Shown piece after piece: positions 36,793-51,943 of a stretch of 64,000 nt of DNA. The notes under the pieces are model-generated. The model was not told where the DNA came from. It ran no database searches and saw nothing but the letters and a program-made list of their open reading frames with translations. Source of the DNA: Poseidonibacter ostreae (GTDB taxonomy: Bacteria > Campylobacterota > Campylobacteria > Campylobacterales > Arcobacteraceae); NCBI RefSeq assembly GCF_009208075.1, contig NZ_WFKJ01000003.1, positions 62,001 to 126,000 of the forward strand, given 5' to 3'. Positions within the stretch are counted from its first letter, which is position 1, and each line of letters starts with the position of its first letter. A program made the position numbers and the translations under genes.

Positions 36793-38217
36793 ATGACAAA
36801 CATAATCCTATGCGGAGGCTCAGGAACAAGACTATGGCCAATCAGTAGAACACTTATGCCAAAACAATTCGTAAAACTATTTAATAACGAGTCATTATTC
36901 CAATTAACAGTAGAACGTAACTCAAAAATCTGTGATACTCAATATATAGTTTCAAATGTAGAACAATACTTCTTAGCATTAGATCAACTTGAAGAATTAA
37001 ATAAAACAAATAATAAATATCTACTAGAACCAGTAGGAAGAAACACAGCACCTGCAATTGCATTAGCTTGTCTAGATCTTCCTTATGATGAAATAGTTCT
37101 TGTAACTCCTTCTGATCATCTTATAAAAGATGAAATAGAATATGCAAAAGTATTAGATCAAGCAAAAGAACTTGCTCTTGAAGATAATCTTGTTACTTTT
37201 GGAATTACTCCACAATTTGCAGAAACAGGATTTGGATATATTGAAGCAGAAAGTATTTACCCCACTCCTGCTTTAGCATCGGGGGCATCGCCATTTAGTG
37301 GCAGAGATGTAAAAGCCTTTCATGAAAAACCAAATAAAGAAACAGCAGAACAATACGTAAAAGCAGGAAACTACTACTGGAACTCAGGTATGTTCTGTTT
37401 TAAAGCAGGAGTATTTTTAGATGAATTAAAAACATACTCTCCAAAAATATATGAAACTTCAAAAACTGCCTATGAAAATGCAAAAAATGAAGGCATTGTT
37501 AGAATTACGCATGAAGATATGAGTAATATTCCAGAAGATAGTATAGATTATGCTGTTATGGAAAAATCTAAAAAAGTAAAAGTTATACCTTCTGATATTA
37601 ACTGGAGCGATGTTGGAAGCTTTGATGCACTATTTGAAGAACTACCAAAAGATAAAGATAATAATACTTTAAACCCAAATCATATTTCAATTGATTCAAA
37701 AAATAATTTAATCTATGGAAATGAAAGAAAAATAGCAACAGTAGATATCGAAGATACTATTATAGTTGATACTGGAGATGCACTACTAATATCTAAAAAA
37801 GGAAGTTCTCAAAAAGTAAAACAAGTAGTAGCCCAGATCAGAAAAACTACACAACTTCATAATATTCATCTTACAGGACATAGACCTTGGGGAACATATA
37901 CAGTTCTAACAGAACAAGAAGGCTATAAAGTAAAAAGAATAGAAGTAAAACCAGGTAAAAGACTAAGCTTGCAAAAACACTACCATAGAAATGAACACTG
38001 GATAGTAGTATCAGGAACTGCAACAGTAACAGTTGGAAGTGAAACTAGATATGTAAGACCAAATGAATCTACATATATCAAAATGGGAGAACTTCATAGA
38101 TTAGAAAATGAAGGAAAGATTCCTGTGATTTTAATAGAAGCTCAAGTTGGTGAATATACTGGTGAAGATGATATTGTTCGTATTGACGATGATTTTAAAA
38201 GGAATACTAATGCCTAA
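36793..38217 (+). CDS. manC: Mannose-1-phosphate guanylyltransferase / mannose-6-phosphate isomerase
   Basis: A bifunctional enzyme making GDP-mannose. The 474-aa product has an N-terminal nucleotidyltransferase (ILCGGSGTRLWPISRTLMPKQF, FHEKP, IDYAVMEKS) and a C-terminal type II phosphomannose isomerase cupin (about residues 350-470; RPWGTYTVL, VKPGKRLSLQKHYHRNEHW). A short insert, roughly residues 154-171 between GYIEAES and VKAFHEKP, is richer in G+C and Pro/Ala/Gly than its surroundings. It is coupled to manB through ATGCCTAA. Confidence 0.95.
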   Translation: MTNIILCGGSGTRLWPISRTLMPKQFVKLFNNESLFQLTVERNSKICDTQYIVSNVEQYFLALDQLEELNKTNNKYLLEPVGRNTAPAIALACLDLPYDEIVLVTPSDHLIKDEIEYAKVLDQAKELALEDNLVTFGITPQFAETGFGYIEAESIYPTPALASGASPFSGRDVKAFHEKPNKETAEQYVKAGNYYWNSGMFCFKAGVFLDELKTYSPKIYETSKTAYENAKNEGIVRITHEDMSNIPEDSIDYAVMEKSKKVKVIPSDINWSDVGSFDALFEELPKDKDNNTLNPNHISIDSKNNLIYGNERKIATVDIEDTIIVDTGDALLISKKGSSQKVKQVVAQIRKTTQLHNIHLTGHRPWGTYTVLTEQEGYKVKRIEVKPGKRLSLQKHYHRNEHWIVVSGTATVTVGSETRYVRPNESTYIKMGELHRLENEGKIPVILIEAQVGEYTGEDDIVRIDDDFKRNTNA

Positions 38218-39574
38218 AAGTATATTTAGAGAGTATGATATAAGAGGAATATATCAAAAAGAGTTAAATGAAACAACAGTAAAAAAAATAGCATACTATT
38301 TTGCACAAGAAGTAAAAGCAAAAACACCAGATGCTGGATATATTTCGGTAGGATATGATGCAAGAACTCACTCAGAGCAATTATGTGAATGGTTAATAAG
38401 TGGTATTAATAAAGCAGGTTTAAAAGTTCTAACTATGGGACTGGTTGCTACTCCTGTAAACTACTTCTCAAATTTCACTAACTTTGAAGATAAAAAAACA
38501 TCTGCATCTATCATGATTACTGGATCTCATAATCCTCCTGAATATAATGGTTTTAAAATTACTATAGATAAACAACCATTTTTTGGTGAAGATATTTATG
38601 CTTTAGGTGATACAGTAATACAAAGTGATATTACAATAGAAGATAATATAAAATCAATTGATATCAATGCAAAAGAACAATATATTTCTTATATGATTGA
38701 AAACTTCTCACACTTACAACTTCAAGATAAAAAGTTTATCTTTGATTGTGGAAATGGAGCTGCTGGTTCAGTTCTTCGAGAAATATTAGATGGACTTAAG
38801 TTAAATCATAAAATTATATTTGAAACACCAGATGGTACTTTCCCAAATCATCATCCAGATCCAAGTGATGCACATAATCTAATCGATATTAAAAAAGAAC
38901 TAGATACTAAAGAATATGCTTTAGGATTTGCTTATGATGGTGATGCAGATAGAATAGCAGTACTATCTCCTAAGTATAACTTTAAAGGTGATGTGTTAGC
39001 TATTTTCTTTTCTAGATTTATAGATAATCCTACAGTAATTGGTGAAGTAAAATGTTCACAAGTTATGTATGATATTATAAATACATACGGTACTGCTATT
39101 ATGTATAAAACAGGACATTCAAATCTAAAAGTAAAAATCAAAGAAACAAACGCGTCATTTGCAGCAGAAGTATCAGGACATCTGTTTTTTAATGATAGAT
39201 ACTTTGGTTATGATGATGCTATTTACTCAACACTCCGAGCTTTAGAACTTTTACATAATGGTTTTAACTATGATGAAGAGTATGAAAAACTACCACAACT
39301 TTTTTCAACAGATGAAATAAATATAAATACAACAGAAGAAAAAAAGTTTAAAATAATAGATGATTTAAAAGAAAAACTTTCAAATCCACCAAAAGATTTT
39401 CCTTTAATAAAAGAGATAATAACAGTAGATGGAGTAAGAGTAGTATTTGAAAATGGTTGGGGATTAGTAAGAGCTTCTAATACTACTCCTAAATTAGTTA
39501 CTAGGTTTGAAGCTGATACAAAAGAGAATGCTTTACTTTATCAAAATGTATTGTTGGAATTAATTAGTGAGTAG
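38210..39574 (+). CDS. manB: Phosphomannomutase/phosphoglucomutase
   Basis: Interconverts mannose 6- and 1-phosphate to feed ManC. The 454-aa product has the phosphoserine loop MITGSHNPPEYNG (about residue 103), the metal loop DGDADR, and the C-terminal phosphate-binding segment RASNTTPKLVTRFEA. ATG 38210 follows an AAAAGGA site and gives the usual FREYDIRG opening. An in-frame start further upstream would add residues that overlap manC and have no family match. It overlaps gmm by eight bases. Confidence 0.95.
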   Translation: MPKSIFREYDIRGIYQKELNETTVKKIAYYFAQEVKAKTPDAGYISVGYDARTHSEQLCEWLISGINKAGLKVLTMGLVATPVNYFSNFTNFEDKKTSASIMITGSHNPPEYNGFKITIDKQPFFGEDIYALGDTVIQSDITIEDNIKSIDINAKEQYISYMIENFSHLQLQDKKFIFDCGNGAAGSVLREILDGLKLNHKIIFETPDGTFPNHHPDPSDAHNLIDIKKELDTKEYALGFAYDGDADRIAVLSPKYNFKGDVLAIFFSRFIDNPTVIGEVKCSQVMYDIINTYGTAIMYKTGHSNLKVKIKETNASFAAEVSGHLFFNDRYFGYDDAIYSTLRALELLHNGFNYDEEYEKLPQLFSTDEININTTEEKKFKIIDDLKEKLSNPPKDFPLIKEIITVDGVRVVFENGWGLVRASNTTPKLVTRFEADTKENALLYQNVLLELISE

Positions 39575-40040
39575 TATTCTTTCAATGCAGCAGTTTGAAA
39601 CAGTTGTTAATTTAGCTCCACTAATATCTATAGATTTTATAGTAAGAAATAGTAAAAATAAAATATTACTGGGAAGAAGAATAAATAAACCAGCAAAAGA
39701 TTTTTTATTTACTATAGGTGGAAGAATATACAAAAATGAGAAAATAGAGAATGCAAAGACAAGAATATTAAATGATGAGTTAAACTTAGAGTTTAAAGAT
39801 TTAAATCCAAAGTTTATTGGAATATTTGCACATTTTTATAAAGATAGCTTTTGTGATGATAATATATCAACACATTATGTAAACTTTGCATATGAGATAG
39901 ATATATCTTATATGCAAAACTTACCAAAGAATCAACACAATGATTATGTATGGTTAAGTTTAGATGAGCTTCTTAATTCAGAAGAAGTTCATCAATACGT
40001 TAAAAATTACTTTACAAATAGTAATTGTAATATTAAATAA
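39567..40040 (+). CDS. gmm: GDP-mannose mannosyl hydrolase (Nudix)
   Basis: Gmm hydrolyses GDP-mannose to GDP and mannose and often sits in colanic/fucose-type clusters, where it may balance GDP-sugar pools. The 157-aa product has [12 protein letters not shown], then a modified Nudix box [22 protein letters not shown]. The usual REUXEE core is altered, exactly as in Gmm enzymes that attack carbon rather than phosphorus. The start is GTG at 39567 (overlapping manB); ATG at 39585 is an alternative. It lies between manB and gmd. Confidence 0.85.
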
Positions 40041-40054
40041 TAAGGAATAAAAAA

Positions 40055-41176
40055 ATGGCAGAACAGAAAGTAGCACTAATAACAGGAATCACAGGACAAG
40101 ATGGATCATATCTTGCAGAATTTCTACTAAAAAAAGGTTATATAGTACATGGATTAAAAAGAAGATCGTCAATGTTTAATACAGACAGAATTGATCACCT
40201 TTACCAAGATCCACATGTTGAAAACCGAAACCTTATTTTACATTTTGGTGATATGACTGATTCTATGAACTTAACTAGAATTATCCAAGAAACTCAACCT
40301 GATGAAATCTATAACCTTGCAGCTATGTCTCATGTTGCTGTATCTTTTGAAACTCCTGAATATGTTGCTAATGCTGATGGAACAGGAACACTTAGAATCC
40401 TTGAAGCTGTTAAATTATTAGGTTTGACTAATAAAACTAGAATATATCAAGCATCTACTTCTGAACTTTATGGAAAAGTACAAGAAACTCCACAAAGTGA
40501 AACTACTCCTTTTTATCCAAGATCTCCATATGCAGTTGCAAAAATGTACGCATACTGGATTACTGTAAATTATAGAGAAGCATATGGAATGTTTGCTTGT
40601 AATGGTATATTGTTTAATCACGAATCGCCAGTTCGTGGTGAAACTTTCGTAACTAGAAAAATTACTCGTGCTGCTTCAAAAATCGCACTAGGATTACAAG
40701 ATAAACTTTACCTTGGAAACTTAGATGCAAAAAGAGACTGGGGACATGCAAAAGATTATGTTCGAATGATGTGGATGATTTTACAAGCTGATGAGCCAGA
40801 AGATTGGGTTATTGCAACTGGACAAACTACAACAGTAAGAGACTTCGTAACAATGGCATTTAAACACGCTGGTATTGAATTAGAATTCAAAGGAACTGGT
40901 GTTGATGAAAAAGCATATGTTGTATCTTGTTCAAATCCTGATTATCAAATCAAAGTAGGAACAAATGTAGTATCTGTTGATCCAAAATACTTTAGACCTA
41001 CAGAAGTTGATTTACTTTTAGGTGACCCTACAAAAGCTGAAACAAAACTTGGTTGGAATAGAGAATATGATTTAAAAACATTAGTAAATGATATGATGCA
41101 ATCAGATCTTAAACTAATGACAAAAGATGTTTACCTTCAAGATGGTGGATATAAAACATTAAGTTACTTTGAATAG
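40055..41176 (+). CDS. gmd: GDP-mannose 4,6-dehydratase
   Basis: Converts GDP-mannose to GDP-4-keto-6-deoxymannose. The 373-aa short-chain dehydrogenase has the nucleotide loop [17 protein letters not shown], the catalytic Thr/Glu in [12 protein letters not shown], and [15 protein letters not shown] with the Tyr/Lys pair. The specific [18 protein letters not shown] and [16 protein letters not shown] motifs of Gmd are present. Length is typical. An AAGGA site precedes the ATG. The next gene, fcl, completes GDP-L-fucose synthesis after an 87-base gap. Confidence 0.97.
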
Positions 41177-41192
41177 GTGAAAGGCGTTAAGA

Positions 41193-41214
41193 AAAAGTGA
41201 ACTGCTTCACTTTT
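41193..41214 (+). other. Perfect hairpin in the gmd-fcl gap
   Basis: A 9-bp perfect stem (41193-41201 with 41206-41214) with a CTGC tetraloop. Only four T residues end the stem and none follow, so it looks like an attenuator or an RNA-processing or stability element rather than a full terminator. Confidence 0.5.
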
Positions 41215-41236
41215 ATAGACTTGGAACTGGAAATTA

Positions 41237-41251
41237 TATGCCAAAGGCATA
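41237..41251 (+). other. Second hairpin before the fcl ribosome site
   Basis: A 6-bp stem (41237-41242 with 41246-41251) and a three-base loop sit four bases before the GGAGG ribosome site of fcl (41255-41259). It could modulate fcl translation. Confidence 0.35.
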
Positions 41252-41263
41252 ATTGGAGGGATA

Positions 41264-42316
41264 ATGAATAAAAATTCTAAAATATATATAGCAGGACATA
41301 GAGGTTTAGTAGGTTCTGCAATAGTGAAGAATCTTACAACAAAAGGTTATACCAATCTAGTTTACAGAACACATAAAGAACTGGATTTATTATCTCAAGT
41401 TGATGTAGAGAATTTCTTTAAAACAGAACAGCCAGAATATGTAATACTAGCAGCTGCTAAAGTTGGTGGTATTGTTGCAAACAATACCTATAGAGCTGAT
41501 TTCATATATGAAAACCTTCAAATTCAAAATAATGTAATTCATAATGCTTATAAATATGAAGTTAAAAAACTTCTATTTTTAGGATCAACTTGTATCTATC
41601 CTAAAATGGCACAACAACCAATGCCAGAAGATTGTTTATTAACTAGCCCTTTAGAATATACAAATGAACCCTATGCTATTTCTAAAATAGCTGGTATAAA
41701 AATGTGTGAATCATATAACTTACAATATGGTACAAACTTTATATCTGTAATGCCTACAAATCTTTATGGACCAAATGATAACTTTGATTTAGAAAAGTCT
41801 CATGTTCTTCCTGCTTTAATTAGAAAGATACATTGTGCAAAACTTCTAAATGAAAAAAAATATGATGAAGTTATAAAAGATTTAAATGTAAATTCTATTG
41901 AAGTTGCAAAAACATATCTAGAAAGCTTTGGTGTAAATGAAAACTCTGTAGAAATATGGGGATCAGGAAAACCAAGACGAGAGTTTTTATACTCTGAAGA
42001 TATGGCTGATGCTTGTGTGTTTCTTTTAGAAAATAGAGATTTTAAAGATACTTATGAAAAAGATTCAAAAGAAGTTATAAATACTCATATCAATATTGGT
42101 ACTGGTGTAGATATATCTATCAAAGAACTTGCACTGTTAATTCAAGAAGTTGTTGGATTTAAAGGTGTGTTTACTTTTAATGACACTAAGCCTGATGGTA
42201 CTATGGTTAAATTAACTGATCCTTCTAAGCTTCATGGTTTAGGTTGGAAGCATAAGGTTGAACTTAAAGATGGGGTTCGAGCTATGTATAAATGGTATTT
42301 AGTTGGAAAACTATAG
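41264..42316 (+). CDS. fcl: GDP-L-fucose synthase
   Basis: An epimerase-reductase that turns GDP-4-keto-6-deoxymannose into GDP-L-fucose. The 350-aa product has [25 protein letters not shown] and the [16 protein letters not shown] and [15 protein letters not shown] active-site motifs. It is longer than E. coli Fcl (321 aa) because of an insert of about 30 residues after [17 protein letters not shown]; similar inserts occur in Campylobacterota. Start is behind a GGAGGG site. With gmd, manC and manB it forms a full GDP-fucose pathway. Confidence 0.95.
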
Positions 42317-42318
42317 AT

Positions 42319-44334
42319 ATGATAGTGGAAAATAAATATAGAAAGAATATTTTGATTTATGCAATTTGTATTAAATTAATAATATTAATATTATTTTCAT
42401 CTGAATATAATGATTTACTTTTTTATTCATTTTTAACCTCAATATCATTTGAAAACCTTAATCCTTGGCAATATTATATTGAGAATAGTATGAATCTAGA
42501 ATCATTCCCATACCATGGGTTGATGCTTTTTTTACTTGCACCTTTTGCTTTACTAGGAGAGATTATTGGGATGGGCGAAATACTGATAAAAATTCCTTTA
42601 CTTATATCTGACGTAGGAATTTTATTTGTTCTTTTAAAGCTTTTCCCTCATAAAGAAAAAAATATTTACATGTATTATTTTTTAAACCCTATAATACTTT
42701 ATTCTACATATATTCACTCTCAATTAGATATAATTCCCACAGCTTTGCTTTTTGCAAGTGTTTATTTTTTGGCTCTACAAAGACTAAAAATATCTGCATT
42801 ATTTCTAGGCTTTGCACTTGCTACAAAATTTCATGTTATCATTGCTTTGCCATTAATTTTGTTTTATCTTTATAGAAAATTTTATTTTAAGAGTATTTTA
42901 ACATATTTAATAATTTCTATTTTAGTTTTTATCACTTTTGATTTACCCTTTATTTTTAGTGATGGTTTTATTCATATGGTACTTTTTAATCCTAAACAAT
43001 CACTACTTTTTGATACTTTTTATCTTATAGGTTCAGTAAAGATACTACTTCCTGTAGCTGCTATTTGTATGGTTTATTTTCACTTTTTTAATCAAAATAA
43101 AGTCAATGATGATTTATTGTTCTTTTACTTTGGGCTTCTCTTTACTGCTACTATATTCTTCATCTATCCTGGTCCTGCTTGGTATGTGTGGATGATTCCA
43201 TTTGTAACTATCTATTTTATACAAAATCAAAATCAAAGTAAAACGCTCATTTTATATGGTGCTTTTTCTTTTACATATCTTTTATTTTTTATATTCTTTT
43301 ATAAAAGTGAATATCAAGATATGTTATTTTTAGGTAAGGTAATAGACTTTAAAATTCATAATGAAAATTTGCAAAACCTATCATTTACATTATTAGAAGT
43401 CACGCTATTAGCGATTATGTATGCATTTTATAAGCATGGTATCAAAAGTAATTCTATTTATAAAAAACAAACGAACCTAACTATTGGTATTGGTGGAGAT
43501 AGTGGAGTTGGTAAATCAACACTTATTAAAAATCTTGAAAATATATTGGGTGATAAACTGATTCAATTAGAAGGAGATGGTGAGCATAAATGGGAAAGAG
43601 GAGATGAAAACTGGTCAAACTTTACACATCTTGATCCAAAAGCAAATCATATACATAAACAAGCAGAATCGATACTAAGACTCAAAAACAATCAAGAAAC
43701 TTATAGAAATGAGTACGATCATTCAACTGGTAAGTTTACAGAAGCTTTTAAAATTACACCAAAAGAGTTTATAGTTATAGCGGGACTTCATCCATTCTAC
43801 CTGCCAAAACTACGAAAGAACATAGATCTTAAAGTATATATAGACACTGATGAAACACTAAGAAGACATTGGAAAATCATCCGTGATACTAAAAAAAGAG
43901 GTTATTCAGTAGAAAAAATTATAGAGCAAATTGAGACTCGTGTTGAAGATGCTAGGAAATATATCTATCCACAAAAAGAGTTTGCAGACTTAGTTATCAA
44001 ATATTTTTCACTAGAAGAATTTAAACTGGGTGATAAATCTGAAATTATAAACCTTGGCTTAAAGATAACTCTAGATGCAAATATTCATATAGAAGATGTA
44101 TTAGAAAGATTAGATGTAAAAGCTGATTGGGACTATAATGAAGATTTACAATCTCAATATTTAATTTTAAAAGATATACCAAAAGTAGGTTTTGAGGATA
44201 TAGCTATAGATACTATTGAAAATATAACAGAGATTATACCATCAGGAATAATCTGGAGTAGTGGATATGATGGATTACTAGAGCTTATATCTTTAAAAAT
44301 GATAAGTGAAAAACTAAAAGAGGAAAATAGATGA
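42319..44334 (+). CDS. GT-C membrane protein fused to a uridine-kinase-like P-loop kinase
   Basis: A 671-aa fusion. Residues about 1-375 are polytopic, with roughly ten or more hydrophobic segments. They include HSQLDIIPTALLFASVYFLA and GFALATKFHVIIALPLILF, a pattern typical of GT-C glycosyltransferases that use polyprenyl-phosphate sugars. Residues about 386-600 form a phosphoribulokinase/uridine-kinase-like domain: Walker A GGDSGVGKST (392-401), EGDGEHKWERGDENW, AGLHPFYLPKLRKNIDLKVYID and RRHWKIIRDTKKRG. ATG 42319, two bases after the fcl stop, is preferred to an earlier in-frame start that would overlap fcl. It is ATGA-coupled to the HAD gene. I know of no characterised protein with this fusion; the substrate is unknown. 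Confidence 0.72.
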   Translation: MIVENKYRKNILIYAICIKLIILILFSSEYNDLLFYSFLTSISFENLNPWQYYIENSMNLESFPYHGLMLFLLAPFALLGEIIGMGEILIKIPLLISDVGILFVLLKLFPHKEKNIYMYYFLNPIILYSTYIHSQLDIIPTALLFASVYFLALQRLKISALFLGFALATKFHVIIALPLILFYLYRKFYFKSILTYLIISILVFITFDLPFIFSDGFIHMVLFNPKQSLLFDTFYLIGSVKILLPVAAICMVYFHFFNQNKVNDDLLFFYFGLLFTATIFFIYPGPAWYVWMIPFVTIYFIQNQNQSKTLILYGAFSFTYLLFFIFFYKSEYQDMLFLGKVIDFKIHNENLQNLSFTLLEVTLLAIMYAFYKHGIKSNSIYKKQTNLTIGIGGDSGVGKSTLIKNLENILGDKLIQLEGDGEHKWERGDENWSNFTHLDPKANHIHKQAESILRLKNNQETYRNEYDHSTGKFTEAFKITPKEFIVIAGLHPFYLPKLRKNIDLKVYIDTDETLRRHWKIIRDTKKRGYSVEKIIEQIETRVEDARKYIYPQKEFADLVIKYFSLEEFKLGDKSEIINLGLKITLDANIHIEDVLERLDVKADWDYNEDLQSQYLILKDIPKVGFEDIAIDTIENITEIIPSGIIWSSGYDGLLELISLKMISEKLKEENR

Positions 44335-45011
44335 GATATAAAGGATTATTATTAGATATAGACAATACTCTATATGGGTATGATTCAACACACAAAATTG
44401 CAAAAAATAGTGTTCTAGATTATTGTAATAGTAAATTTAATCTTACAAACACAAGTATTGAAGAAGCTTATGATATAGCTAGAAAAAAAGTACATATAGA
44501 GCTAAGTGAAACTGCATCTTCACACAATCGACTTTTATATATTCAAAAGATGTTAGAACATCTAAATATCAATCCACTTGAACATACTCTAGATATTTAT
44601 AACATTTACTGGGATACTTTTTTAGAAAATATGAAACCATTTGATGGAGTGTATGAATTATTAGAGATGTACAAAGGTAAAATTTGTTTAGTTACAGACC
44701 TTACTGCACATATACAGCATAGAAAAGTGCAAAAGTTAGAATTAGATAGATATTGTACAAAAATAGTGACAAGTGAAGAGTCTGGTCGAGAAAAACCACA
44801 TCCTTATATGTTTATGTCTGCATTAGGAAAGCTTGACTTAAAAGCAAAAGATGTCTGCATGATAGGAGATAGCTTAAAGAAGGATATTGTTGGAGCATCT
44901 AGTTTAAACATAAAATCAATTTGGTTAAATAGTGATAAAAAAATAGAAAACTATGATAATACTTTAGTTCAAGAAGTAAAAACATTTAATGAAATATTGG
45001 AGTTGGTATGA
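44331..45011 (+). CDS. HAD superfamily hydrolase
   Basis: A 226-aa soluble phosphatase-type protein with HAD motif I LLLDIDNTLYGYD (nucleophile Asp about residue 8), motif II VTDLTAHI, motif III Lys near REKPHPYMF, and motif IV MIGDSLKKDIVGA. The helical cap (about residues 15-90) places it in subfamily I. Four-base overlaps on both sides tie it to the kinase fusion and the aldolase. It probably dephosphorylates an intermediate of the same pathway; the substrate cannot be read. Confidence 0.85.
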   Translation: MRYKGLLLDIDNTLYGYDSTHKIAKNSVLDYCNSKFNLTNTSIEEAYDIARKKVHIELSETASSHNRLLYIQKMLEHLNINPLEHTLDIYNIYWDTFLENMKPFDGVYELLEMYKGKICLVTDLTAHIQHRKVQKLELDRYCTKIVTSEESGREKPHPYMFMSALGKLDLKAKDVCMIGDSLKKDIVGASSLNIKSIWLNSDKKIENYDNTLVQEVKTFNEILELV

Positions 45012-46078
45012 GTGAAATAAAAGATTTGGTTGAGATATCAAAGTATGCAGGTGAGAGATTTGATCTAGTTCAAGCTGGTGGTGGAAATAGTTCTGTCAAA
45101 TATGACAATGATGAAATGATTATCAAAGCATCTGGTTTTCTGCTTAGTGAGCTAGGTGAAAATAATGGATACTCTAAAGTTGTAACGTCTAAAATAGCAT
45201 CTATTGTAAAAGATCAAACTATAATAAATAGCAAAGATAAAAGAGAAAGAGAGTCTTTAACTTCACAACTTGTAAAAGATTTTACACTAGACAAAGAGAA
45301 TCGTCCATCAATAGAGACACTTTTACACTCATTTTTACATAAATATACTCTTCATACTCATCCTATTGTAGTCAATATGATAGTGATTCAAAAAGATTAC
45401 AAAAATATACTAAAAAGTATTTTTAAAGATAAAAGCATAGCAATAGTTGAGTATAAAACTCCAGGAATAGAACTAGCTTTAGCTCTTGATACAGAGTTAT
45501 CTAACATTGAAACAATTCCAAACATCATATTTTTACAAAATCATGGTTTGATAGTTACATCAAATCATAAAAATGAGATAAAACAGATTACAGAAAATGT
45601 AATAACAAAAATATCTAAATATCTAAATATAGAAATGGATAGATATAAAATGACAAATAGTATCACATATCTTTTAAATGCTATAGAAAAAAATTCAAAC
45701 ATCTCATATTTAAGCGAAGATATTTATTTAAATAATAAATTAAACACAAATAAAGAACTATTTTTTAATACACCATTTTGTCCAGATAGTTTAGTTTACT
45801 GTGGGATAAGTTGTTGTGAAATAGAAAATCTATTTGATATCGAAAGTTTACAAAACTATAAAGAAAGATACTTTGAACTACCAAAAGTAATAAGTTATAA
45901 GCACAATCTGTTCTTCATAGCTCAAAATATAAAAAAGGCAAAAGAAATAGAAGAGGTTTTTAAATTTCATATAATGGTTTTAGAGAAAAATAGGAAAAGA
46001 GATAATAGTTTTTTAGAGATGAAAGAATTAGCATACCTCAGTAATTGGGAAGCTGAAAAATATAGACAGAAAGTATAG
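45008..46078 (+). CDS. Class II aldolase/adducin family protein
   Basis: A 356-aa protein with the fuculose/rhamnulose-type class II aldolase fold. The phosphate-binding loop is QAGGGNSSVKYD (about residues 22-33), the first metal site is LHTHPIVVNMI, and the second His is in FLQNHGLIVTS. The C-terminal third, after about residue 215, extends beyond the usual 210-240-aa enzyme and has two Cys-containing stretches (TPFCPDSLVYCGISCCE). Family members split or epimerise phosphorylated sugars. ATGA overlap with the HAD gene and proximity to a kinase and a nucleotidyltransferase suggest a sugar-building role here. Confidence 0.82.
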   Translation: MSEIKDLVEISKYAGERFDLVQAGGGNSSVKYDNDEMIIKASGFLLSELGENNGYSKVVTSKIASIVKDQTIINSKDKRERESLTSQLVKDFTLDKENRPSIETLLHSFLHKYTLHTHPIVVNMIVIQKDYKNILKSIFKDKSIAIVEYKTPGIELALALDTELSNIETIPNIIFLQNHGLIVTSNHKNEIKQITENVITKISKYLNIEMDRYKMTNSITYLLNAIEKNSNISYLSEDIYLNNKLNTNKELFFNTPFCPDSLVYCGISCCEIENLFDIESLQNYKERYFELPKVISYKHNLFFIAQNIKKAKEIEEVFKFHIMVLEKNRKRDNSFLEMKELAYLSNWEAEKYRQKV

Positions 46079-46089
46079 GAGATAAAATA

Positions 46090-47736
46090 ATGCACATAAT
46101 AGTACCAATGTCAGGAATAGGAAAAAGATTTATAGACGCAGGATATAAAGATCCAAAACCATTGATAGTAATAGATGGTAAACCAATAATAGAACATGTT
46201 TGTAATTTATTTCCAAATGAAACTAAATTTACATTTATCTGTAACTCAAAGCATTTAGCAGAGACAAATATGAGAGAGGTGCTGCTAAGCATAAAACCAA
46301 ATGCAAATATTGTAGAGATACCTAACCATAAAAAAGGTCCAGTTTATGCAGTATCACTTGTAGAAGATTTTATAGAAGATGATGAAGAAGTGATAGTAAA
46401 TTATTGTGACTTTGGTACATATTGGGACTATGCTGACTTTTTAAAACACACTAGAGATAGAGATGCAGATGGAGCGGTTCCATCTTATAAAGGATTTCAT
46501 CCTCATATGTTAGGAAGTACAAACTATGCATTTATGAGAGATGAAAATCAATGGATGCTTGAGATAAAAGAGAAAGAACCATTTACAGACAATCGTATGA
46601 ACGAATACGCTTCAAATGGAACTTATTACTTCAAAAAAGGCTCTTATGTAAAAAAATATTTTAAAGAGCTAATGGATAAAGATATAAATCTTAAAGGTGA
46701 GTTTTATGTATCTCTTATTTATAATCTATTGGTTGATGATGTATTGAAAGTTTCTATTTATGATGTTCAACATATGCTTCAGTGGGGAACACCTCAAGAT
46801 GTTGAAGAGTACAATACTTGGTCAAAATATTTTAGAGATGTTATTGAGGAAAAAGAGAAACCTAAAGCACAAAAAAACAGTATTACCCTTATTCCACTTG
46901 CTGGTCGCGGAAGTAGATTTGCCAAAGTTGGATATAAAGATCCAAAACCTCTTATTGATATTAGTGGTAAGCCGATGATAATACAAGCTGCAAACTCTTT
47001 ACCAAATAGCAAAAAACATATCTTTGTCACACTACAAGAGCATTTATCTAAATATCCTCTAGAAGATACTTTAAAAAATGAATATCCAAACTCTAAAATA
47101 ATCCCAATAGATGAAGTAACAGAAGGACAAGCTATCACTTGTAGTTTAGGATTAAAAGATGTAGATACAAATGCTTCACTTCTTGTAGCAGCTACAGATA
47201 ATGGAATGATATATAATCATGAAAAATATCAAAGTTTAGTAGAAGATAAAAATGCAGATGCAATTATTTTTACATTCCGACATCATGTAAGTAGTAAAAA
47301 TAACCCTCAAATGTACGGATGGGTAAAAACGGATGATAAAGACAATGCAACTGGTGTATCTGTAAAAGTCCCTATTTCTGATAATCCATTTGAAGACCAT
47401 GCGATAGTTGGAACATTTTGGTTTAAAAAAGTTGAGTATTTTAACAAAGCTTTAGAAAAATTATTAGCCAAAGATATAAGAGTAAATGGTGAGTATTATG
47501 TAGATAGCTTAATGGGTGAGCTAATAGAACTAGGACTTAATGTTAAAGTATTTGAAGTAGATGATTATATCTGTTGGGGAACACCTGATGATTATGAAAC
47601 ATTTGTTTATTGGCAAAGTTTTTTTCATAAAGTAGATTGGCATCCATATAGCTTAGAAAAAGACATAACTGTTAATCAAGATAAAATAGAAATACTAAAT
47701 AAAAAATATAGAGCATTTAATCAAGAGAATAGATGA
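46090..47736 (+). CDS. Tandem sugar nucleotidyltransferase
   Basis: A 548-aa protein made of two related nucleotidyltransferase domains. Domain 1 (about residues 1-255) has PMSGIGKRFIDAGYKDPKPLI and a WGTPQDVEEYNTW end. Domain 2 (about 262-548) has PLAGRGSRFAKVGYKDPKPLI and WGTPDDYETFVYW. Both keep the glycine-rich NTP loop and the Lys of PKP, so both may be active, but domain 1 has SGIG where domain 2 has AGRG. It probably makes one or two NDP-activated compounds from the phosphates produced by the preceding kinase/aldolase genes. It is four-base-coupled to the GtrA gene. Confidence 0.8.
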   Translation: MHIIVPMSGIGKRFIDAGYKDPKPLIVIDGKPIIEHVCNLFPNETKFTFICNSKHLAETNMREVLLSIKPNANIVEIPNHKKGPVYAVSLVEDFIEDDEEVIVNYCDFGTYWDYADFLKHTRDRDADGAVPSYKGFHPHMLGSTNYAFMRDENQWMLEIKEKEPFTDNRMNEYASNGTYYFKKGSYVKKYFKELMDKDINLKGEFYVSLIYNLLVDDVLKVSIYDVQHMLQWGTPQDVEEYNTWSKYFRDVIEEKEKPKAQKNSITLIPLAGRGSRFAKVGYKDPKPLIDISGKPMIIQAANSLPNSKKHIFVTLQEHLSKYPLEDTLKNEYPNSKIIPIDEVTEGQAITCSLGLKDVDTNASLLVAATDNGMIYNHEKYQSLVEDKNADAIIFTFRHHVSSKNNPQMYGWVKTDDKDNATGVSVKVPISDNPFEDHAIVGTFWFKKVEYFNKALEKLLAKDIRVNGEYYVDSLMGELIELGLNVKVFEVDDYICWGTPDDYETFVYWQSFFHKVDWHPYSLEKDITVNQDKIEILNKKYRAFNQENR

Positions 47737-48101
47737 GTAAGATTAAAAAAGAGTTAAAGAGGTTTTTAGTAGCAGGGTTAAGTGCAGTTGGAACTGACTT
47801 AGTTACATACTATATGTTATTAAACTTTTTACCTCATGATATTGCAAAAGCGATCTCTTTTCTTTTAGGAACTGTAGTTGCTTTTATTATCAACAAATAT
47901 TGGACTTTTGAGAAATACGAAAGATCATATAAAGAAATATTAAAATTTGCACTACTTTATAGTGTAACACTAGGAGCGAATGTAGTGACGAATAACTTGT
48001 TTTTAGAATATACAAGTTTAGTATTTGTAGCATTTTTAGTAGCTACGGGAGTTAGTACGGTACTTAATTTTATTGGACAGAAATGGTGGGTTTTTAGATG
48101 A
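47733..48101 (+). CDS. GtrA family membrane protein
   Basis: A 122-aa protein with four membrane helices and the GtrA-family features KRFLVAGLSAVGTDLVTYYML and FLLGTVVAFIINKYWTFE. GtrA proteins are thought to flip undecaprenyl-phosphate-linked monosaccharides across the inner membrane. With the GT2 gene at 50649 and the GT39-like gene at 49081 it would complete a three-part side-branch glycosylation module. Four-base overlaps with both neighbours. Confidence 0.88.
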   Translation: MSKIKKELKRFLVAGLSAVGTDLVTYYMLLNFLPHDIAKAISFLLGTVVAFIINKYWTFEKYERSYKEILKFALLYSVTLGANVVTNNLFLEYTSLVFVAFLVATGVSTVLNFIGQKWWVFR

Positions 48102-49084
48102 CTAGAGATTTGAAATTGGACTCATTAAAAGGATTTTTAATTGTTCTTGTAGTAATTGGTCATATACCATTTGGCAGTTTTAACATAGAAAGAATATCTA
48201 TAATAAAATATTTTGGTCAATGGTTTTATATTTTTCATATGCCTTTGTTCTTTGCTGTTAGCGTATTATTTATTAAAACTGATTATCAATGGCTATTTAA
48301 AAGAGCAAGTTTAGTATTAATTCCATACTTATTTTGGTTTTTTTATGGACATAAACGAATGTTATTAGAAAATCCAATTGAGTTCATGGGGGGGGTACTC
48401 ATGGGTAATTGGAGTACACTCAATTCAATATTATGGTTTTTACCTGCTTTATTTACATTAAATTTACTTTTCTTTTTATTCAAAAAATCAAATAAGAAAA
48501 TACAAGTGCTATTTTTAATAATATCACTTGCTTCATTTATTTATGCAAGTGAAATTGCAATGCTTCATTATCAAATACCTTTTGGTTTTGATGTTGCTAT
48601 ATATTTGTTTTTATTGGTTTTGACAATTAAATACATTTATGAAAATAAAGAAAGATTTATAAAAATTAATATGTATCAAATTTTAGGATTATTAATTATT
48701 TCATCACTGTTGTTATTTAATTTTGAACCTATTAAAACTCATTCACAATGGTATAAAATTATAGATTTGGCACAATTTTCAGTTGCAACTACAGTAATAG
48801 GATATATTTCATTTTTTATTTTAAATATATCTATTTTTATATTTTTTATTAAAATCAAATCAAATCAAATATTAGAGTTTATTGGAAATTATTCATTTCC
48901 TATTTTTTTATTACATTTAATAATCTTGTACAAACTACCTAATTTAATAAAATTTGATAGTAATTATACTAACTTTTTATTTTTATTAATAAGTACTGTT
49001 TTAAGTATTTTATTGCCAATTGTAATTTCAAAAATATTAATGAAAACAAGTGATAAATTTGAATATATAGGAATGGTAAAATGA
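48098..49084 (+). CDS. Acyltransferase 3 family, with G8 tract (phase-variable candidate)
   Basis: A 328-aa polytopic membrane protein with about ten helices and the acyltransferase-3 opening RDLKLDSLKGFLIVLVVIGHI with its catalytic His. Such enzymes O-acetylate or succinylate polysaccharides. A run of eight G residues (48388-48395) lies at codons 97-99. The gene is in frame as sequenced. One G fewer leads to TAA after about 25 codons; one G more gives TAA within seven codons. It is therefore a plausible ON/OFF switch. ATGA overlaps on both sides keep it inside the operon. Confidence 0.85.
   Translation: MTRDLKLDSLKGFLIVLVVIGHIPFGSFNIERISIIKYFGQWFYIFHMPLFFAVSVLFIKTDYQWLFKRASLVLIPYLFWFFYGHKRMLLENPIEFMGGVLMGNWSTLNSILWFLPALFTLNLLFFLFKKSNKKIQVLFLIISLASFIYASEIAMLHYQIPFGFDVAIYLFLLVLTIKYIYENKERFIKINMYQILGLLIISSLLLFNFEPIKTHSQWYKIIDLAQFSVATTVIGYISFFILNISIFIFFIKIKSNQILEFIGNYSFPIFLLHLIILYKLPNLIKFDSNYTNFLFLLISTVLSILLPIVISKILMKTSDKFEYIGMVK
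48388..48395 (+). repeat. Poly-G tract (G8)
   Basis: Eight consecutive G residues inside the first acyltransferase gene. Runs of this length are strongly under-represented in such A+T-rich DNA and are the classical slipped-strand contingency signal of Campylobacterota. Confidence 0.9.
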
Positions 49085-50652
49085 AAATAATCTCAGTAAT
49101 AGTCCTAATTGCACTAGTGTATTTAAACTACAGGCACTTAAATATAGGTTTTTTATCTCTTTATAGCATAGACGAATACGCTTTTCATGGTAGTTTGCTC
49201 AACATGTACGATGGCTTAGTTTCCTTAGATATCAAAAAGCTTTTTTCTTTTGGATTTTATAGCTATGGATTTGGCTTTTTCTTTTTAAATCTTTTAGCTA
49301 CAGTTCCATTTTTTGCTACAGACAACATAGAGATGACCATATATATGCCAAGGATTATAACATCACTTTTTGCAGTTGGTTCTGTATGGTTTGTTTATAA
49401 AATAGCGAGAGTGTATGTAGATAGATATAGTTCTGTACTAATAGCCTTACTTATTTTTACCATGCCAGGTTTTTATAGAAATGCATTATGGTTTCATCCA
49501 GATTGGATGATGACTTTTTTTGTTGTATTATCTGTATATCTTTTTGTTAAAGATAATTTTAAATACAAAAAGTTTTTTTGGTGGGCAGTAGTGACTTTAG
49601 GTTTTGCTATATCTACAAAGATACAAGCTATAACATTTTTACCTTTTGTTTTTGTCTATATATTTTATGAAAGTTTTCAGAAAAAGTCTTTTATAAATAT
49701 CAAGATAGGCTTAAAACTATTTGCTAAATCATTTGTATCTTTAGTAGCTATTTTTGTAATTACTAATCCTTATTTAATACATCCAAGTGGCCTAAAAGTA
49801 TTTGTTGCTATGTTTCTTGCGAATATGGAGTCAAATGCAACAAACCATGGTAAAGTTGGAACTGTGACTATTGGAGAAAAGCTTTCAAATGCTATTAATT
49901 TTTACTACCTTGAAAGTTTTTTATTTATTATTTTAATTCTAATTTCTCTTGTAGTCTTATTTTCTATTTTTTATAAAAACAAAAGTAAATCTATTTTGCC
50001 TTTGATAGCTCTTTACATTGTTTTAAATATTGGTTATTTGTTTTTAATGGTAAATAAAGATTGGCAACACTACTATTTGACTATTTTTACACTTACTCCT
50101 TTACTTTTGATATATCTAAGAGATAAATTTCCAAAGTATAAATACTTTTTTCTAATAGGTGTATTGGTTGTTCAAGTATCTACCCACATTGATGAATATA
50201 AATATGTCTTTACAAAAGGATTTCACTCAAAAGAGATCAGTAAATCAAAACAAGATGATATAAGCCATAGTTTGATAGCAATATTGAGTCCTGTAGTTGA
50301 TAAAGATACGAATATCTTGATAAGTTCGTATCAGCCTTTTGATTTTAGAATCTTAGGATTAAACTATAAAAATATTCATGGGATATATGGACCTATAGCA
50401 CTTCATAGTATAAAACTAGATGCATATTTAGAAAAATCAAATTCTAAAGATCCATCAAAGTTTGTAGAAAAAGATTTTATTGTTTTATCTAAAGAAGATA
50501 TATATTTTGATGAGCAAAAACTATCTAAAATGGTTGATAAAGAAGGCTTTCTAAAAGCTGAACAAATCATATATAATTTCAATCAAGGTGGAAATTTAGG
50601 TTATGAAAAATACGCTGAAAATGAATACTTTTATGTATGGAGAAGAAAATGA
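49081..50652 (+). CDS. GT39/PMT-like polytopic glycosyltransferase
   Basis: A 523-aa membrane protein with roughly ten to twelve helices and a C-terminal soluble tail. The early SIDEYAFHGSLLNM loop carries the acidic residues typical of GT-C enzymes of the ArnT/PMT type, and MPRIITSLFAVGSVWFVYKIAR is a typical second helix pair. It should transfer a sugar from undecaprenyl phosphate in the periplasm. GtrA upstream and a DPM-like GT2 downstream fit this. ATGA-coupled on both sides. Confidence 0.78.
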   Translation: MKIISVIVLIALVYLNYRHLNIGFLSLYSIDEYAFHGSLLNMYDGLVSLDIKKLFSFGFYSYGFGFFFLNLLATVPFFATDNIEMTIYMPRIITSLFAVGSVWFVYKIARVYVDRYSSVLIALLIFTMPGFYRNALWFHPDWMMTFFVVLSVYLFVKDNFKYKKFFWWAVVTLGFAISTKIQAITFLPFVFVYIFYESFQKKSFINIKIGLKLFAKSFVSLVAIFVITNPYLIHPSGLKVFVAMFLANMESNATNHGKVGTVTIGEKLSNAINFYYLESFLFIILILISLVVLFSIFYKNKSKSILPLIALYIVLNIGYLFLMVNKDWQHYYLTIFTLTPLLLIYLRDKFPKYKYFFLIGVLVVQVSTHIDEYKYVFTKGFHSKEISKSKQDDISHSLIAILSPVVDKDTNILISSYQPFDFRILGLNYKNIHGIYGPIALHSIKLDAYLEKSNSKDPSKFVEKDFIVLSKEDIYFDEQKLSKMVDKEGFLKAEQIIYNFNQGGNLGYEKYAENEYFYVWRRK

Positions 50653-51350
50653 AATTATCAATAGTAGTACCTTGCTACAACGAAGAAAAAAATATACCTT
50701 TGATTTTAGAAAAATTCCAAAGCGTAATTAATAGAAATGATGTAGAGGTCCTTTTAGTGAATAACGGATCAACAGACAACAGTCAAACGGTTTTTGATGA
50801 ACTTGTCCCAAAATACACTTTTGCTAGGGTTGTAAATATAGATGAAAATCAAGGTTATGGTTTTGGTATAACATCTGGACTAAATAAAGCAACTGGAGAG
50901 TTTATAAGTTACACACATGCTGATATGCAAACAGACCCATCCGATGTACTTAAATCTCTTGGAATCATAGAAAAACAAGACAATCCTATACACTGCTATG
51001 TAAAAGGTGACAGAAAAGGCAGACCTCTTTTTGATCAGATTTTTACTATGGGGATGAGTGCATTTGAGAGTATATATTTAGGTAAAAAACTTTGGGATAT
51101 AAATGCTCAACCAAATATTTTTCACAAAAGTTTTTTTGACTCTGTAAAACTAAGTTGTCCAAAAGACTTTTCACTTGACTTATACTTTCTATATAAAGCT
51201 CAAATAGATGGACTTGATGTTATCCGATTTAATGTAGTTTTCCCTGAAAGACTTCATGGCGAATCAAGTTGGAATGATGGTTTTGCTTCAAAGTGGAAAT
51301 TTATCAAACGAACACTTGCTTTTAGTTTTAAACTTAAAAAGGAATTATAA
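50649..51350 (+). CDS. GT2 glycosyltransferase, polyprenyl-phosphate sugar synthase (GtrB/DPM1-like)
   Basis: A 233-aa family 2 glycosyltransferase with MKLSIVVPCYNEEKNIPLIL, the NNGSTDNS and SYTHADMQTDP (DxD-like) motifs, and a Rossmann-type GT-A core. It has no C-terminal membrane helices, unlike GtrB of Shigella phages, so it resembles soluble DPM1. I start it at ATG 50649, which overlaps the preceding stop as ATGA, rather than four codons earlier. Probable role: making the Und-P-sugar used by the GT39-like enzyme. Confidence 0.82.
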   Translation: MKLSIVVPCYNEEKNIPLILEKFQSVINRNDVEVLLVNNGSTDNSQTVFDELVPKYTFARVVNIDENQGYGFGITSGLNKATGEFISYTHADMQTDPSDVLKSLGIIEKQDNPIHCYVKGDRKGRPLFDQIFTMGMSAFESIYLGKKLWDINAQPNIFHKSFFDSVKLSCPKDFSLDLYFLYKAQIDGLDVIRFNVVFPERLHGESSWNDGFASKWKFIKRTLAFSFKLKKEL

Positions 51351-51352
51351 AT

Positions 51353-51943
51353 ATGGAATATATAGCACATAGAATCAACACCATTGAAGAATTGAAACAA
51401 ATACCAAAAGAGTATGGTGTAGAACTTGATTTAAGAGACTATTCAGATAGACTTGTATTGCAACACGATCCATTTACAGATGGAGAAGATTTTGAAGAGT
51501 ATCTAAAATACTATGAGCATGGTACTATGATACTAAACATTAAAAGTGAAAGAATAGAACATAAAGTCTTAGAACTTATCCAAAAGTATAACATCAAAAA
51601 ATACTTCTTTTTAGATAGCTCCTTTCCTATGACATATTTACTCTCAAAAAGTGGTGAGAAGAATATTGCTCTTAGATTTTCAGAATTTGAGGGAACAGAT
51701 ACTATTTTAAATATGAAAGATAAAGTAGATTGGATATGGGTAGATTGTTTCTCAAAACTACCAATAAACAAAGAAAATTACAAATTACTAAAAGAAAATG
51801 GCTTTCAATTTTGTCTAGTATCACCAGAACTTCAAGGTCAAAAGGATAAGATTGAAGAGTATAAAGATTACTTGAAAAAAGAAGAAATAATTTTTGATGC
51901 TATTTGCACAAAATGTTATAATGTAGAAAGGTGGAATAAATAA
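51353..51943 (+). CDS. GDPD/PLC-like TIM-barrel phosphodiesterase
   Basis: A 196-aa protein with the N-terminal glycerophosphodiesterase pattern AHR (residues 5-7), GVELDLR (about 21-27) and LQHDPF (about 35-40), which together supply the catalytic His pair and the Glu/Asp metal ligands. It has no signal peptide and is shorter than typical GDPD enzymes (about 240 aa), so the barrel may be minimal. Its place among polymer-building genes suggests it acts on a cytoplasmic phosphodiester or nucleotide-linked intermediate, or recycles a phosphoglycerol substituent. This is inference. Confidence 0.7.
   Translation: MEYIAHRINTIEELKQIPKEYGVELDLRDYSDRLVLQHDPFTDGEDFEEYLKYYEHGTMILNIKSERIEHKVLELIQKYNIKKYFFLDSSFPMTYLLSKSGEKNIALRFSEFEGTDTILNMKDKVDWIWVDCFSKLPINKENYKLLKENGFQFCLVSPELQGQKDKIEEYKDYLKKEEIIFDAICTKCYNVERWNK

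Follow-up and report, generated by a model that had tools for sequence, protein, structure and literature searches.

A conserved, mobile gene cassette in Poseidonibacter ostreae with a predicted role in making an unusual nucleotide-activated sugar

We analyzed a 64,000-nucleotide stretch of DNA from Poseidonibacter ostreae (contig NZ_WFKJ01000003.1, positions 62,001 to 126,000), hereafter called the window, and in it a run of genes that begins at position 42319. The genes encode a kinase fused to a GT-C-type membrane domain, a HAD phosphatase, a class II aldolase, a tandem nucleotidyltransferase (NTP), a GtrA-family protein, a GT2 glycosyltransferase, and a small protein with a GDPD fold. This module is real, conserved, and mobile. 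We consider it reasonably probable that it is a self-contained cassette making one unusual nucleotide-activated sugar, which is placed on a surface glycan. An earlier note had regarded the first four genes, up to position 47736, as an undescribed module with a compact route to a nucleoside diphosphate (NDP)-sugar or NDP-polyol.

Results

Conservation of the module

The four open reading frames (ORFs) between positions 42319 and 47736, encoding the GT-C–kinase fusion, the HAD phosphatase, the aldolase, and the tandem NTP, are all intact. As described in the earlier note, three of the genes are joined by 4-base overlaps. ATGA overlaps join the kinase and HAD genes (44331–44334) and the HAD and aldolase genes (45008–45011), and the NTP gene follows after 11 bases; the four domain identities also proved correct (Table 1). 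The boundary at 47736 is arbitrary. Further ATGA overlaps occur at 47733, 48098, and 49081, a 16-base overlap lies at 50637, and the next gene starts at 51353. The conserved unit comprises nine genes and extends to 51943, the four genes of the note being its front half.

Leaving aside loci truncated by a contig end, 13 loci (window included) encode all six of the kinase, HAD phosphatase, aldolase, tandem NTP, GT2, and GDPD-fold protein. As the profiles of HAD and GT2 drifted when iterated, co-occurrence was re-counted with pairwise BLAST. GtrA is present in all 13 loci except L003. The full modules belong to Campylobacterota, Bacteroidota, the phylum of a Gastranaerophilales genome, and Pseudomonadota, and their gene order varies in at least five ways. 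Co-occurrence of the four families in other genomes had been set beforehand as a test that could refute the module, which thus survived it. The unit is, however, larger than four genes, as the GDPD-fold protein is always present and GT2 and usually GtrA belong to it outside a Campylobacter-like form described below.

A scan with the aldolase found loci in a Campylobacterales metagenome-assembled genome (MAG), in Flavobacterium gawalongense, and in two Gastranaerophilales MAGs. The Flavobacterium locus has nine genes syntenic with those of the window at 59–81% identity, the NTP being 81% identical. Additional carriers are three Campylobacterota genomes (G044, G428, and G244), two genomes each in the phyla of the Flavobacterium and the Gastranaerophilales genome, and four plasmids, namely Hirschia baltica pHbal01, Azospirillum brasilense p5, an Escherichia coli IncR plasmid, and another E. 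coli plasmid of frog-farm origin. The module is nevertheless rare: close NTP matches occur in 4 of 397 Campylobacterota genomes and in 3 of 395 and 4 of 292 genomes of two other phyla. In G428 (L057) it appears damaged, the ORFs for the GT-C–kinase, GT2, and GDPD-fold protein each being broken in two. Other aldolase relatives in Campylobacterota (L008–L024, 23–36% identity) were rejected as unrelated; only generic GT2 matches, and no other core families, lie nearby. A widespread sister cluster (L067–L072, L090, L115, and related loci) encodes a GDPD-fold protein, a beta-PGM-type HAD, two single NTPs, and a cupin, without kinase and aldolase; in several of these loci one single NTP lacks the GxGxR motif.

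Literature searches for the gene combination, whose coverage of subscription journals was thin, returned no description of the set. In agreement with the earlier note, which knew of no characterized pathway with these genes, the set is apparently undescribed as a whole, as far as the searches show. Its single parts and general logic are known, and what is apparently new is their combination.

Reduced core, gene fusions, and co-divergence

Eight Campylobacter-like loci (L058–L065) encode, in this order, the GDPD-fold protein, a kinase–HAD fusion (split in L061), a short aldolase, and the tandem NTP, at 25–38% identity. GT-C, GtrA, and GT2 are missing, which indicates that the five-protein biosynthetic core can occur without the transfer part. 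In the two loci that were read more closely, the following gene would, by inspection, encode a KpsC-like protein.

Four kinds of fusion were seen: GT-C–kinase, HAD–kinase, NTP–NTP, and NTP–NTP–GT2, the last as a 758-amino-acid protein in L109. The fusions support linking the kinase with the HAD phosphatase, the kinase with the GT-C domain, and the NTP with GT2. The genome that carries L004 has a second locus, L102, in which NTPa and NTPb are separate genes beside one for ribulose-phosphate 3-epimerase (Rpe; PF00834, 1.5e-55; 199 bits with the rpe model, cutoff 212.6). This split-NTP cluster is possibly a pentulose or pentitol version of the module. Two zinc alcohol dehydrogenases, a xylose-isomerase-like protein, and a GtrA-like protein are also encoded there (L102:5948-11680).

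Across 10–12 loci, the pairwise identities of seven proteins correlate with r values of 0.74–0.96, and none of 5000 permutations reached the observed value. NTP and GT2 are the best-tracking pair. The correlated divergence shows co-inheritance of the genes.

Mobility

None of the nine other genomes of the window's genus that were examined contains the aldolase. In G044 (L055, L116–L118; G044:C1, approximately 1.200–1.256 Mb), the cassette adjoins a phage integrase gene and no other polysaccharide genes. The island also holds Rad52, Gp157-like, replication-initiator-like, and restriction-type genes; no tRNA was found near the cassette. The two E. coli plasmids (NZ_CP145712 and NZ_JCAPUP010000005; L086 and L095), which come from human stool (IncR) and frog-farm sediment, carry the complete cassette with IS26 on its flanks. 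On the frog-farm plasmid, the cassette adjoins a fragment of an AIDA-repeat adhesin gene. The Synechococcus phages Bellamy and S-SM2 (L091, L092) encode a tandem NTP approximately 50% identical to that of the window, followed by GT61 (tested in S-SM2) and a class II aldolase, within a large sugar-gene island. The cassette is horizontally mobile across at least four phyla and, in part, also in cyanophages.

Kinase and fused GT-C domain

The membrane half of the window fusion protein has no Pfam match of its own. The corresponding halves of its orthologues match GT87 (four of nine) and ALG3 (two of nine), which are GT-C families using polyprenyl-phosphate sugars, and the region N-terminal to the kinase domain has about ten hydrophobic segments. 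The GT-C/kinase fusion claimed earlier is confirmed.

In all four kinases tested, the phosphoribulokinase (PRK) model NF005655 scored higher than the uridine kinase (udk) model, with 187 versus 82 bits for the window, 205 versus 94 for the E. coli plasmid, 223 versus 79 for L106, and 135 versus 75 for the Campylobacter-like L059. All four scores lie below the NF005655 cutoff of 236; the udk score of the window kinase is likewise far from the cutoff of that model (220). In an alignment with PRK 6kev, residues of the type H45, R49, K165, R168, R173, and R186 were found in 16 of 16 module kinases, and E. coli Udk differs from PRK at H45, R49, K165, and R186. Overall, the PRK-type H, R, N, H, GLH, K, R, and Q are kept in all 16 and missing in Udk. 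Several of these PRK residues bind the phosphate of ribulose 5-phosphate (Ru5P), and their retention suggests that the substrate of the module kinase is probably itself a sugar phosphate. One Trp and one His are unique to the module kinases in this alignment, which would argue that the substrate is not simply Ru5P.

HAD phosphatase, aldolase, and tandem NTP

The window HAD phosphatase matches the ribulose 1,5-bisphosphate (RuBP) 5-phosphatase model NF053830 over its full length (172 bits, 1.2e-50), below the cutoff of 330. The model matches 15 of 15 module HADs and was the top model in all six read singly (E-values from 1e-13 to 2e-53). Four control HADs from neighboring or sister clusters preferred beta-phosphoglucomutase models. 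The catalytic residues D9, D11, T122, K155, and D180 are invariant. Judged by these scores, the module HAD is a predicted relative of RuBP 5-phosphatase rather than a member of that family.

The C-terminal extension of the aldolase noticed earlier is real; it spans approximately residues 210–356 and has no Pfam match. With the AlphaFold2 (AF2) model (pLDDT 81), Foldseek returned 3m4r and FucA as the nearest folds, and L-ribulose-5-phosphate 4-epimerase lower down. E103, H116, H118, and H179 are invariant in 16 sequences and correspond to the class II (FucA/RhaD-type) Zn/Glu site; we take E103 to be the catalytic Glu and the three His residues to be the Zn ligands. Glu rather than Asp at the catalytic position favors an aldolase over an epimerase. 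The putative module aldolase, as far as its residues tell, keeps the zinc/Glu site of ketose-1-phosphate aldolases.

In the tandem NTP, R13, K23, D107, and K162 of the first half and R276, K286, D370, and K426 of the second are invariant among 14 sequences, and each half has the RmlA/GlmU-like motif set (G-x-G-x-R, PKP lysine, metal Asp, and second Lys). The nearest PDB entry is 4evw. Both halves look catalytic. The presence of the expected Arg, Lys, Asp, and Lys in each makes two activation steps, or two sites for one step, possible.

GT2, GtrA, and GDPD-fold protein

A phmmer search against the PDB matched the GT2 with the dolichyl-phosphate mannose synthase (DPMS) 5mlz, ArnC, and GtrB 5ekp. 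GtrA, the GtrB-like GT2, and a GT-C-type transferase occur together in the window and in most other full loci. The presence of GT2, usually with GtrA, outside the Campylobacter-like form indicates that the sugar most likely reaches its acceptor by way of polyprenyl phosphate and not straight from the NDP donor. The earlier proposal that the fused membrane domain could transfer the product fits, with this intermediate step added.

The AF2 model of the GDPD-fold protein has a pLDDT of 95.4, and its top Foldseek matches are GDPDs (E = 4e-7, TM 0.73). H6, R7, E24, D26, H38, and K64 are invariant, in accordance with a GDPD TIM barrel that has the presumed catalytic His and metal residues. The Pfam GDPD family PF03009 matches only 1 of 14 GDPD-fold members (E = 0.25), and the window protein has no usable Pfam match.

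Layout and accessory genes

GDP-mannose/GDP-fucose genes lie upstream of the module and a flippase-like ORF downstream; the module therefore sits in a polysaccharide locus. The upstream genes (36793–42316) include one for GDP-mannose mannosyl hydrolase (NF011963, above cutoff). The G+C content of the region is 27.6% and that of the window 28.4%, so that its composition is not distinctive. An alternative in-frame ATG for the GT-C–kinase gene is possible at 42292. Two genes of the unit are accessory. The Acyltransferase_3 protein has a clear counterpart only in the Flavobacterium locus (L002), with a weaker match (32%) in L108, and the position of the PMT_2-like protein is taken by other membrane proteins in other loci.

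Table 1. Genes of the conserved nine-gene unit in the window
Product	Position	Strand	Evidence
GT-C membrane domain (approx. residues 1–375) fused to PRK-like P-loop kinase (approx. 376–671)	42319..44334	+	PF00485 1.9e-36; NF005655; GT87/ALG3 in orthologues
HAD-IA phosphatase, closest to RuBP 5-phosphatase	44331..45011	+	HAD_2 8e-20; NF053830 172 bits
Class II aldolase with C-terminal extension	45008..46078	+	PF00596 (Aldolase_II) 2.7e-14; AF2 and Foldseek
Tandem nucleotidyltransferase, two RmlA/GlmU-like halves	46090..47736	+	PF00483 (NTP_transferase) twice
GtrA-family membrane protein (candidate lipid-linked sugar flippase)	47733..48101	+	PF04138 8.1e-23; conserved alongside NTP and GT2
Acyltransferase_3 membrane protein, accessory	48098..49084	+	PF01757; 59% to L002
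Second GT-C-like membrane protein (PMT_2-like), accessory	49081..50652	+	PF13231 7.8e-08; 61% to L002
DPM1/GtrB/ArnC-like GT2 (candidate polyprenyl-phosphate sugar synthase)	50637..51350	+	PF00535; phmmer PDB matches
Small GDPD-fold TIM-barrel protein, constant module member	51353..51943	+	AF2 model and Foldseek; invariant residues

Discussion

From gene content, conservation, fusions, residue conservation, and mobility we infer each reaction and the product of the following route. The PRK-like kinase would add a second phosphate to a sugar phosphate, and the HAD phosphatase would take off the original one, the net effect being a shift of the phosphate to another position, as in ADP/GDP-heptose synthesis. 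The aldolase would make, reshape, or clear a ketose 1-phosphate, and one or both NTP halves would form the NDP donor. GT2 would then load the sugar onto polyprenyl phosphate, GtrA would flip the lipid-linked sugar, and the GT-C domain would attach it, in the periplasm, to the polymer during or after its synthesis. For the GDPD-fold protein, a (possibly cyclic) phosphodiester arising in the route is the most likely target.

A ketose phosphate, which may be that of a pentulose, is the most probable substrate of the pathway. Among candidate products, a ketopentose such as xylulose is plausible; the PRK-like kinase, the RuBP-phosphatase-like HAD, the ketose-1-phosphate aldolase fold, the link to Rpe, and the occurrence of xylulose in bacterial polysaccharides suggest it. 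This sugar is found in several of them (PMC8707391, PMC10919079), including those of Campylobacter jejuni RM1221 and E. coli O95 (PMC8707391). Devosia submarina KMM 9415 and Yersinia enterocolitica O:10 also count among the known xylulose producers. Distant DNA searches for a chromosomal locus of the E. coli O95 type matched only the two plasmids; sensitivity at the DNA level is low, and absence is not implied. Fructofuranose, as in C. jejuni HS:1, was considered as the product and found no support; a single 849-amino-acid protein, HS1.08, is held responsible there (PMC7901785, PMC11924219). A fully specified version, in which phosphate relocation on a pentulose phosphate leads through an NDP-ketose and a polyprenyl-phosphate ketose to a ketofuranose such as D-xylulofuranose, with the GDPD-fold protein handling cyclic phosphates, is put forward tentatively and with low confidence; if correct, no earlier donor pathway for a ketofuranose residue would have been recognized. 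NDP-ketose donors may form such cyclic phosphates.

Several observations weigh against the proposed route. A ketose 1-phosphate is not anomeric, and a GT2-compatible NDP donor would need extra, unexplained chemistry at C2. The scores of the kinase and the HAD phosphatase fall below the curated cutoffs, so their substrates probably differ from Ru5P and RuBP. In 10 of 16 kinases, including that of the window, Ala or Ser stands at the position of the Walker-B Glu (PRK E131), which is kept in the other six; the other kinase motifs are all kept in the kinases with the replacement. The role of the GDPD-fold protein is left unexplained by the route. Finally, the correlated divergence partly mirrors the joint descent of the loci, as any jointly inherited genes would correlate.

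An ordinary aldose-1-phosphate route to a hexose or heptose, in which the kinase acts on the anomeric carbon, the HAD removes the terminal phosphate, and the NTP activates the product, would follow the step order of HddA, GmhB, and HddC. The NTP is weakly similar to that of the 6-deoxy-mannoheptose pathway (6jq8 and 5xhw). We nevertheless rate this variant as rather unlikely: the kinase belongs to the PRK family and not to GHMP or PfkB, the HAD is not GmhB-like, and the heptose route has no place for a class II aldolase.

Only a little less probable is an NDP-polyol (CDP-polyol) as the product, destined for a phosphodiester polymer of the teichoic acid type, with the GDPD-fold protein trimming such phosphodiesters. 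The GDPD fold suits glycerophosphodiesters, IspD/TarI-type NTPs activate polyol phosphates, and the split NTPs of L102 adjoin the two zinc alcohol dehydrogenases and Rpe. There is also a precedent in C. jejuni HS:5, which makes CDP-6-glucitol from fructose 6-phosphate by an NTP and a short-chain dehydrogenase/reductase (SDR; PMC10918830). The conserved set, however, has neither a reductase nor a TagF-like polymerase, and GT2, GtrA, and GT-C together indicate a glycosyl lipid carrier. Of the NDP-sugar or NDP-polyol route proposed earlier, the logic of kinase, phosphatase, and NTP activation fits, but the polyol is not favored because the conserved set lacks a reductase and the kinase and HAD indicate a ketose bisphosphate.

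It is quite improbable that the kinase, HAD, and aldolase serve catabolism as a pentose-bisphosphate shunt, leading from RuBP via ribulose 1-phosphate (Ru1P) to dihydroxyacetone phosphate and glycolaldehyde, and merely happen to lie in a polysaccharide locus. Such steps are known from haloarchaea, where RuBP 5-phosphatase removes the C5 phosphate of RuBP and a co-encoded FucA-type aldolase splits Ru1P (PMC9700705), and the module HAD and aldolase resemble these types. Yet the tandem NTP and the GDPD-fold protein are always present, even on plasmids, and the kinase is fused to a GT-C domain. Polysaccharide loci are mosaics, but a chance neighborhood of the genes is refuted by the recurrence of the module in 13 loci with at least five different gene orders, by the four fusion types, and by the correlated divergence, and we give it almost no credence.

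Bacterial capsules and O-antigens are known to contain ketoses such as xylulose, fructose, and sorbose, and a complete donor pathway for these sugars was not found in the literature examined. The cassette offers a concrete set of about six proteins for assaying ketose-donor chemistry. It would be a surface-changing element with its own sugar synthesis that is already on E. coli plasmids, and it would account for generic annotations ("uridine kinase", "hypothetical protein") in several phyla.

The GtrA/GtrB/GtrC glycosylation systems of serotype-converting phages likewise combine GtrA, a DPM1/GtrB-like GT2, and a GT-C-type transferase in a small mobile cassette, and the module sits once in an integrase-bearing island (G044). 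In contrast to GtrABC, it carries its own sugar-activation enzymes, a GT-C domain fused to a kinase, and an extra GDPD-fold protein, and its GT2 is short (237 amino acids), without the C-terminal membrane helices of GtrB. With the ADP/GDP-heptose pathway it shares a kinase, a HAD phosphatase, and an NTP in one operon as well as the logic of phosphate relocation, but it has a PRK-family kinase, a RuBP-phosphatase-like HAD, and a class II aldolase, and lacks the isomerase GmhA. The non-carboxylating pentose bisphosphate pathway of haloarchaea (PMC9700705) also pairs a RuBP 5-phosphatase-type HAD with a class II aldolase in one operon and relies on bisphosphate chemistry. That pathway, however, is catabolic, obtains RuBP by an isomerase instead of a kinase, and involves neither an NTP nor a glycosyltransferase. 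The CDP-6-D-glucitol pathway of C. jejuni HS:5 (PMC10918830) resembles the module in using a nucleotidyltransferase on a ketose phosphate for a capsule, but consists of only two enzymes, the NTP and an SDR reductase, without kinase, HAD, aldolase, or lipid-carrier step.

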